Source: Lutibacter maritimus (GTDB taxonomy: Bacteria; Bacteroidota; Bacteroidia; Flavobacteriales; Flavobacteriaceae). From it: a DNA stretch of 64,000 nucleotides. The stretch's first letter is position 1; the number at the start of each line of letters is the position of its first letter. Below the pieces are notes generated by a model that saw only the letters and a list, made by a program, of their open reading frames with translations, had not been told where the DNA came from and did not search any database. This document shows positions 62,035-63,543 of the stretch, in pieces. The translations under genes were made by a program, and so were the position numbers. The stretch spans positions 636,071-700,070 of the forward strand of contig NZ_FOZP01000001.1 in NCBI RefSeq assembly GCF_900116115.1, written 5' to 3'.

Positions 62035-63543
62035 TTACAATAACTTTTTAATCTCATCTTCAAACTTTTCCAATGTATACAATGTAGACCAATCCATACC
62101 ATTTTGAGCGTGATGAGCATACAAACTGTCATTATTAACATAGTTTTCTACAGCATTTACAATCTCATCTAAATTAGCAGTAACAATAGTTCCTCTACTA
62201 CCATTTCCCAACATTTCTGGAACACATGATACATTACTTGTCATAGGAACACATCCCCAAAACATAGCTTCTGCAACTACTTTTGGCCATCCTTCAGATT
62301 TTGAAATAAATACTAAAAAATGAGCTTGTTGATAGGCCTTTTTTACAATTTCTTTTGAAGTATTTCCATGTAAAATTATAATACCTTCTAATGAGTTATC
62401 TAAAATATAATCTGTTATTTTAGCTTTTTCAACACCATCGCCATACATATCTAACTGAACATTATAGCCATTCTTTTTCAGTTTATGAATTACTTGAACA
62501 CTTAACAATGGTTGTTTTCCTGGTGTTAATCCACCAACATAGATGAATTTTAGTATTCCGTCATTCCGCACTTGATGCGGAATCTGTTTGTCGAAATCCA
62601 AATCTTGAGATCCCCAGTCAAGCTGAGGATGACGTTCTGAATCGACATGCTGAACTTCATTTGATTCTTGCCCATCGTATCCGTCATTCCGCACTTGATG
62701 CGGAATCTGCTTCTTAAAACCCAAAACGCTTCTAATTTCAATCGCTTCAATCTCCTTTTCTGAATAACTTGCAGTAAAAAAGGGTACAATATTCTTTGAT
62801 TGGTTCGGCCATTCTCCATATACCAATACTTTACAATTTCTAGTTAAAAAAGTATTTGAAAGTATCCATTTTTGAAGCCTGTAACTTCTTGGCTGCTTAC
62901 TTGTTCGATCCCAATTTCCAGCATATTTTACCGTTTTTGGTTTCTTTGGAAATAATATTTGTACAAAACATCCTAACAATCCAATATTTCCTGGGCAGCG
63001 CAAATGAATATGATCTGCCCATTGCATGGCTTGGTAAATTTTATAACAAATTTTTGGAATTTTTAGCAATGCATTCATACTATTATTCAATGAAGTGATA
63101 TCAAACGAAGGTATGCCAATTAGTTTTATTCCATCATTCCGGACTTGATCCGGAATCTTATACTCGTTTTCCAATTCTTGAGATCCCCAGTCAAGCTGAG
63201 GATGACGTTTGCTGTCGCCAAGCTGAGGATGACGTTTGCTGTCGCCAAGCTGAGGATGACGTTTGCTGTCGCCAAGCTGAGGATGCCGTTCAGATTCGTC
63301 TTGCTGAATTTGATTTGAGACCTGTACTACGTATTCGTCATTCCCAACTTGATTGGGAATCTGTCTCTTTAGTTGATAACTACTATCAATTTCACTTCTC
63401 TTACCCTTAGCAACCGGAGCAACAATTTGAACCTCATCAATATGCTTCAACCATAAATTCATTTCTTTCACATAGGGTTCATACGCAACTATTTGCTGCT
63501 CATGAATTTTATGTTCGGCATGTGTTATTATAGCGAATTTCAT
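62035..63543 (-). CDS. GT4 glycosyltransferase carrying two translated DNA-element inserts
   Basis: A 502-residue GT-B protein. Normal GT4 parts are KICYKIYQAMQWADHIHLRCPG, the hinge IYVGGLTPGKQPLLSVQVI and the SKSEGWPKVVAEAMFWGCVP site. Two foreign stretches interrupt it: residues about 61-138 and about 278-329. Both read IP(H/N)QV-ND, then SERHPQL-DWGSQ, then IP-QVRNDG, encoded by a palindromic element. Removing both leaves about 372 residues, the usual GT4 size. The inserts fall before a loop and between the two Rossmann domains, so the enzyme may still work. It starts 5 bases after the next gene upstream. Confidence 0.85.
   Translation of the reverse strand: MKFAIITHAEHKIHEQQIVAYEPYVKEMNLWLKHIDEVQIVAPVAKGKRSEIDSSYQLKRQIPNQVGNDEYVVQVSNQIQQDESERHPQLGDSKRHPQLGDSKRHPQLGDSKRHPQLDWGSQELENEYKIPDQVRNDGIKLIGIPSFDITSLNNSMNALLKIPKICYKIYQAMQWADHIHLRCPGNIGLLGCFVQILFPKKPKTVKYAGNWDRTSKQPRSYRLQKWILSNTFLTRNCKVLVYGEWPNQSKNIVPFFTASYSEKEIEAIEIRSVLGFKKQIPHQVRNDGYDGQESNEVQHVDSERHPQLDWGSQDLDFDKQIPHQVRNDGILKFIYVGGLTPGKQPLLSVQVIHKLKKNGYNVQLDMYGDGVEKAKITDYILDNSLEGIIILHGNTSKEIVKKAYQQAHFLVFISKSEGWPKVVAEAMFWGCVPMTSNVSCVPEMLGNGSRGTIVTANLDEIVNAVENYVNNDSLYAHHAQNGMDWSTLYTLEKFEDEIKKLL
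62559..62710. repeat. composite palindromic element, copy B
   Basis: Two copies of CGTCATTCCGCACTTGATGC with following GGAATCTG (62559-62586 and 62682-62710) flank a middle block TCCCCAGTCAAGCTGAGG (62611 onward). Each end forms a 7-bp stem TTCCGCA/TGCGGAA with loop CTTGA. The element lies in frame inside the glycosyltransferase gene. Confidence 0.8.
63132..63363. repeat. composite palindromic element, copy A, with expanded middle
   Basis: Same order and orientation as copy B: a palindrome TTCCGG/CCGGAA (63137-63155), the middle block TCCCCAGTCAAGCTGAGG (63184 onward), and a palindrome TTCCCAA/TTGGGAA (63341-63359). The end stems differ in sequence but each keeps self-complementarity (compensatory changes), which suggests that the hairpin matters. 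The middle block is expanded into 27-bp repeats. Confidence 0.8.
63193..63290. repeat. 27-bp tandem repeat inside copy A
   Basis: AAGCTGAGGATG recurs at 63193, 63220, 63247 and 63274, exactly 27 bases apart, with GACGTTTGCTGTCGCC between. The minus strand reads it as nine-residue repeats KRHPQLGDS, keeping the frame. Confidence 0.85.

Follow-up and report, generated by a model that had tools for sequence, protein, structure and literature searches.

Putative in-frame arrays of CGTC-type REP palindromes in two loops of a GT4 glycosyltransferase within one flavobacterial genus

A GT4 glycosyltransferase gene in the window (the whole 64,000-nucleotide stretch of Lutibacter maritimus DNA that was analysed) carries two in-frame palindromic inserts, which most probably derive from CGTC-type REPs that lodged in two loops of the enzyme within this genus and have persisted there as arrays kept in frame, with lengths and REP types that shift between species, a reading to which we give a probability of roughly 0.8. 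Palindromes inside genes have already been described in Rickettsia (PMC3767692), and scattered cases are known elsewhere (PMC3733652). What is new here is that REPs are concentrated in two loops of a single enzyme, form a length series and follow a phase rule.

The features of the gene are the following:

62035..63543 (-), GT4 glycosyltransferase gene, 502 aa, an intact ORF holding both inserts
62557..62721 (-), site-2 insert (copy A), aa 275-329, 55 aa, composed of hairpin, inverted hairpin and hairpin
62560..62585 (+), CGTC-type REP hairpin of copy A, 8-bp stem ATTCCGCA/TGCGGAAT, loop CTTGA
62608..62633 (-), middle block of copy A, an inverted CGTC-type hairpin translated as RHPQLDWGS
62683..62708 (+), CGTC-type REP hairpin of copy A, identical to 62560-62585
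63130..63375 (-), site-1 insert (copy B), aa 57-138, 82 aa, the same composite plus 27-bp tandem repeats
63133..63158 (+), REP hairpin of copy B, tag CATC instead of CGTC, stem ATTCCGGA/TCCGGAAT, found with a relaxed pattern
63181..63206 (-), middle block of copy B, an inverted hairpin found by pattern scan
63192..63299 (-), 27-bp tandem repeat, in frame, including half of the middle hairpin of copy B
63337..63362 (+), REP hairpin of copy B, stem ATTCCCAA/TTGGGAAT

Two in-frame palindromic composites with the same order and orientation had been reported for this gene in an earlier note, and both are indeed present in an intact ORF; the span given there, 62559-63363, holds both inserts but also takes in about 400 bp of ordinary gene between them. 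The inserts have a G+C content of 46-47%, against 32% for the remainder of the gene, and without them the protein would count 365 aa, with the borders set in this analysis, where the loci compared included no close insert-free relative with matching flanks. Pfam PF00534 (Glycos_transf_1) matches aa 318-482 (4.2e-23), and the site-2 insert lies immediately N-terminal of the GT4 C-terminal domain, to which the match in a search of solved structures was also confined. The AlphaFold2 prediction from the single sequence has a mean pLDDT of 31, and a shallow model built with five sequences reaches a mean of 52.6 and is confident mainly in the C-terminal domain. In the latter model both inserts are predicted as coil (block pLDDT mostly 23-32), falling between strands 37-44 and 139-145 at site 1 and between strands 237-241 and 331-336 at site 2; since the confident part is mainly C-terminal, the loop placement in the N-terminal half is tentative. 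The gene adjoins other ORFs with glycosyltransferase domains. A phage origin was also considered and rejected: in a blastn search of 50,697 phage records, the span hit four, over about 27-34 bases and at E 0.9.

Each composite consists of a hairpin, about 22 nt, an inverted hairpin, a spacer and a further hairpin, in the order hairpin, TCCCCAGTCAAGCTGAGGATGACG, hairpin, so that the element previously described as a middle block is itself an inverted hairpin. In copy B the 27-bp tandem units start at 63192, 63219, 63246 and 63273, and each adds nine residues in frame. The terminal hairpins had been said to differ between copies and still pair. More exactly, copy A has the same outer hairpin twice, and each outer hairpin of copy B departs from this one and from its counterpart through paired stem changes. 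Such changes preserve the pairing but give different residues (IPHQVRND, IPDQVRND, IPNQVGND), which points to renewal of the palindrome at the DNA level and not to conservation of the peptide.

By tag, stem and loop the elements belong with the CGTC REPs, the letters of the tail excepted, as judged from the sequence. An unpaired tag of the expected kind (CGTC, or TGTC/CCTC, at one end) is found, with CGTC in five of the window's six full hairpins inside the gene and CATC at 63132-63135; the stem has the 8-9 bp and initial AT, and the loop the 4-5 nt, of this class (ATTCCGCA/TGCGGAAT, CTTGA); and the copies are many and mostly intergenic, with no dedicated transposase by a search for PF01797. 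The bases following the stem are CTG, CTC or CTT in the window hairpins, versus the CCA of most CGTC REPs. These REPs, described by Di Nocera, De Gregorio and Rocco in 2013 (PMC3733652), share with ours the tag type, the 8-bp stem starting with AT and the 5-nt loop, as well as the formation of dimers and clusters, and differ in the tail, which is CTN here and CCA in most of theirs. They include dRS3 and RPE-4/6, lie mostly between genes and sometimes in ORFs, have no associated transposase and count Bacteroidetes among their hosts (PMC3733652). The Neisseria dRS3 elements, which are CGTC-1 REPs in large clusters (PMC3733652), resemble the present arrays by description.

The hairpins are not a product of chance, given that the pattern GTCATYC N8-16 GRATCT has 60 matches in the window's own genome (G000) and its reversal none, and that GTCATTCC N9-11 GGAATCT occurs in 175 of 397 family genomes and its reversal in three. 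They had been suggested to spread through coding DNA, for which we found no support: 54 of the 60 exact hairpins lie outside stop-to-stop ORFs of at least 120 aa, five are in the GT4 gene and one borders another ORF. In relatives, 90 loci were considered, comprising 30 brought by the family pattern scan and 60 stretches of our choice among the places listed by it; of the 104 hairpins that they contain, only one is clearly interior to a gene, that for TrpF in L096, and five are at N-terminal edges, 0-29 codons from the first possible start. The TrpF gene (L096:1521-2219, PRAI domain), from another genus, carries an in-frame pair of CGTC-type hairpins in its middle.

Within the window's genome, 51 of the 60 exact hairpins are clustered at C10:242-247k, C10:261-263k, C19:698-699k and C20:9.7-31k. 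Ten proteins were tested in C10:256-271k and C20:1-20k, of which one is of the cation-efflux type and nine are of polysaccharide type, with polysaccharide-synthesis, nucleotide-sugar, aminotransferase, glycosyltransferase or ABC-transporter domains. A second palindrome family has copies, similar to each other, at two contig ends (C19:709177-709230 and C20:11-64), so that C19 and C20 may be neighbours.

The GT4 protein was compared with 299 family genomes, of which 245 have a match at E ≤0.001, the best alignments being interrupted at both inserts. In a set of 28 orthologues, 26 have open frames of 371-384 aa, and the other two are of 446 aa (the frame being open upstream of the start) and 454 aa (with another repeat insert). 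Inserts of the window type are absent from all 28, the site-2 loop having 19-21 aa and the site-1 loop 54-58 aa in the 27 measured for each; one orthologue, L050, failed the site-2 measurement, and BLAST leaves 11 residues there. Insert-free orthologues, on which the earlier note had made its reading depend, thus exist. A search of genome contigs with the insert peptides gave 49 pattern matches and one confirmed locus, L077 (Flavobacteriaceae). This orthologue likewise has inserts at site 1 and site 2, and its GT4 shares 100% identity with the one in G403, a genome of the window's genus. With the L077 protein, a search of 149 relatives (E ≤1e-40) found the gene in 17 genomes of this genus; its frame is open over 378 to 950 aa, except in one genome where a contig end truncates it. 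For at least 20 other genomes of the genus there was no match to this protein at E 1e-40.

Loop lengths were measured between fixed sequence anchors. Outside the genus, 39 of 46 genomes were measurable at site 2 (one failed the anchor and six did not parse), and all 39 have 19-21 aa there, with 44-62 aa at site 1. Inside the genus, the site-2 loop has 35-223 aa, that is, 15-203 aa extra, in 15 of the 16 measurable genomes; it has 74 aa in the window, where the site-1 loop has 134 aa. The sixteenth genome, G424, is insert-free with a site-2 loop of 20 aa, and in G425 a REP-like site-2 insert begins before the gene is cut by the contig end. At site 1 the outside range is exceeded in seven of 15 measurable genomes (G000, G403, G405, G408, G416, G420 and, by little, G427), so that eight genomes of the genus have site-1 inserts if we count G415, whose array runs off the contig. 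The latter (L214:4209-5814) is built of in-frame 240-bp units, 6.7 in number and 100% identical, and is either a recent expansion or an assembly artefact. The one-contig genome G408 has inserts at both sites. Two scans found no hairpin in the site-2 inserts of G404, G406, G417 and G427, and only one of them found a hairpin in that of G429; the inserts of G404 and G406 match little else, and these five hairpin-poor inserts are therefore only putative REPs. In the gene tree the genus rows do not form one clade, two changes being needed, with one change in 52% of bootstrap trees; the tree is compatible with ancestral absence or with loss of the inserts in G424. Within one genus, one enzyme offers a natural length series, its two fixed loops having gained anywhere between no and about 500 residues, which together with the insert-free relatives makes it directly testable whether palindrome-coded peptides are tolerated or selected.

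G000 and G416, sister rows in the gene tree (support 99/88), have different REP peptides at the same sites, IPxQVRND/HPQLDWGS in the former and LKQVQHDE/RHPEFSSGS in the latter. In the seven species with sizeable inserts at both sites, site 1 resembles site 2 of its own species more closely than sites of different species resemble each other (median 91.5 versus 43 bits, rank test p 0.0007), and the same site across species is not more alike than different sites (p 0.56), p-values that are indicative only because the rows share ancestry. The partner in the same species is the best match for only six of 14 inserts in the two-site species. On the whole, inserts match the remainder of their own locus better than that of other species (p 0.001, the compared stretches being unequal in size); of 23 inserts, six are clearly best matched at home, two tie and 10 have no match in their own locus. 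In the window's genome each composite matches its partner, over 100 and 97 nt, and matches elsewhere are of at most 34 nt with two exceptions, C8:154902-154959 (58 nt, 83%) and C10:246825-246897 (73 nt, 74%). The comparison of sequences suggests local exchange among REP copies.

Different REP types at the same sites in the sister rows would also be expected if an active mobilising enzyme put the resident REP type into both permissive loops in each species, selection keeping the in-frame events, and such independent fresh insertions are a tentative possibility, the occupation of a third GT4 loop by other repeats in G241, G007 and G257 also speaking for them. However, the site-2 insert is present in 15 of 16 genomes inside the genus and in none of the 39 outside it, although some of the insert-free outsiders are rich in hairpins (48 in G288, 29 in G179, 27 in G096 and 20 in G084), which favours an old founding event followed by turnover; the lack of a Y1 transposase match in G000 also counts against fresh insertions.

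The core of the GT4 is under purifying selection as estimated from sequence pairs, with dN/dS of 0.08-0.17 in five pairs (0.11 for the window versus the G416 copy), dS being above 1.2 in three of the five. The inserts themselves keep a strict register. A phase scan covering 58 in-gene hairpins in 20 arrays from 13 genomes found that forward hairpins are read as CGT CAT in 31 of 31 cases and reverse hairpins as xAT GAC G in 27 of 27, so that one phase per orientation, stop-free and hydrophilic, is used in all 58. The elements had been described earlier as tuned to be open in this frame, which proves too simple, as two forward phases are stop-free and the hydrophilic one alone is used: forward phase 1 is stop-free in 31 of 31 hairpins but hydrophobic (mean GRAVY +0.67 versus -1.40), and is never used. 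Reverse hairpins have an alternative, phase 0, that lacks stops in 11 of 27. When each insert is taken as a whole, 22 of 23 have the frame in use as their most hydrophilic one; only G406 departs from this, by 0.02, and the other two frames are stop-free in one and none of the 23. The TrpF insert of L096 uses the same two phases as the GT4, in another genus.

Neighbouring hairpins share a phase in 18 of 18 pairs inside genes, versus 28 of 59 intergenic pairs, or 18 of 49 if the G416 array is set aside. This array, at L208:1705-2373 beside the G416 GT4, is co-phased in 10 of 10 pairs, open over 222 codons and apparently intergenic. The REP arrays of the window's genome are not open by nature, since intergenic windows are seldom so (113 of 2834 combinations of window and frame at 165 bp, and four of 1900 at 246 bp); shuffled insert sequence is open in 1-2%. 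Because of shared ancestry, the phase rows are best read as a consistent rule and not as 58 independent trials; six of the forward hairpins counted come from repeats of a single G415 unit, and the constant phase may in part descend from one founding insertion with register-preserving exchange. A looser hairpin scan also gave two hairpins in the insert-free G424, and another four when run on 13.9 kb of core sequence. We infer translation of the inserts from frame, phase and selection, and in the two length-variable loops repeat DNA appears to be tolerated, and to be shaped, at the protein level. The phase rule would be a simple signature of selection on translated repeat DNA that can be searched for in other genomes.

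The inserts are thus best read as a frame-filtered REP array that turns over in two linker loops. The GT4 loops would tolerate a soluble, unstructured peptide, units arriving or expanding in the right phase would survive and the others would be purged. Turnover would occur mainly by copying and recombination among REP copies, with slippage in addition, the exchange partners being the copies within the GT4 gene and the arrays in the adjoining intergenic DNA. Stem complementarity may be renewed by hairpin-templated correction or by conversion from other copies, which we propose because the paired changes alter the encoded residues.

A bolder extension, which we consider unlikely, is that the two loops are standing docking sites, which keep taking up selfish palindromes and turning them into hydrophilic linkers locked in frame. 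As a CGTC REP gives a stop-free hydrophilic peptide in either orientation at a fixed phase, REPs would then act as ready-made coding modules, and their turnover would diversify a polysaccharide enzyme between species. It is also unlikely, judging from the sequences, that the variable loops are adaptive, with changes in length and charge altering activity, partner binding or regulation and the REPs serving as raw material; the presence of inserts in 15 of 16 measurable genomes of the genus with large length differences, the position beside the C-terminal domain, the exclusive use of the hydrophilic phase and the neighbouring glycosyltransferase-domain genes would all fit, but mere tolerance of soluble linkers predicts the same pattern and G424 does without the insert.

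Among known systems, REPINs and BIMEs are marked by a GTAG tag and a RAYT transposase gene. The alternation of palindromes in orientation recalls them, and movement of the present elements by a REP-associated tyrosine transposase is nevertheless very improbable, as the tag here is CGTC and not GTAG, the G000 genome has no match to PF01797 (Y1 transposase), and among 44 genomes of our choice this domain is found in 12 of 22 with high copy number versus nine of 22 with zero copies (Fisher p 0.55); the elements are accordingly not assigned to this class.

The Rickettsia palindromic elements, which had been named as the precedent for in-frame palindromes, are rightly so named, since orthologues with RPE-4, RPE-6 and RPE-7 carry inserts at the same site (PMC3767692). 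The R. japonica paper describes 18 orthologues with RPE inserts in an intracellular genus (PMC3767692). RPE-4, RPE-6, RPE-7 and eRPE-4 share with the GT4 inserts the same-site position with element types varying by species, the solvent-exposed placement and an ATGAC motif (PMC3767692). In contrast, the GT4 case concerns two sites of a single enzyme, its arrays reach about 500 codons, and most of the other copies are intergenic. As the RPEs are defined as families in Rickettsia genomes and the L077/G403 host belongs to the Flavobacteriaceae, the inserts, which work like RPEs, are not filed among them. Two copies in one gene, presented before as a special trait, are present here, but double REP insertions in one ORF are already in print for uvrB of R. 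conorii, uvrA genes of O. terrae and uvrA of Thioalkalivibrio (PMC3733652). The parts of PMC3733652 compared here neither follow a single gene through a genus nor give a phase rule or a length series, the intragenic list being in the supplement, and its main text has no word beginning with "glycosyl". In the titles and abstract openings of the open-licence literature on Bacteroidetes, flavobacteria and glycosyltransferases, we found no account of the GT4 case.

That the arrays are misassembled repeats, or the gene a pseudogene open by chance, has a negligible probability: some assemblies are fragmented (e.g., G399, G411 and G429, with 270-350 contigs) and the G415 and G425 genes meet contig ends, but the frame is open over the whole gene in 15 genomes, one of them a single contig, and from the contig end in G415, the core dN/dS given above is low, and the gene has like neighbours in G000, G403, G408 and G416 by our reading of the ORFs.

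A third loop of the enzyme, following RGILL, is long in G241, G031, G007 and G257 only, with 77-102 aa versus 29-31 aa among the loci measured; these orthologues (L117 in G241, L109 in G007, L110 in G257 and L108 in G031) are from outside the genus. In G007 and G257 this loop contains a CAGTTCGAGT...GTATCGAGAAC palindrome, of which there are five copies in G007, one in G257 (that of the third loop) and nine in the window's genome. In G241 it is made of GTGGTCAGTGG tandems, present elsewhere in that genome too, and in G031 it is repeat-like. In G031 and G257 the GT4 is fused to a second glycosyltransferase-like part, giving ORFs of 818 and 846 aa, respectively, with the two parts joined by a repeat-like linker.
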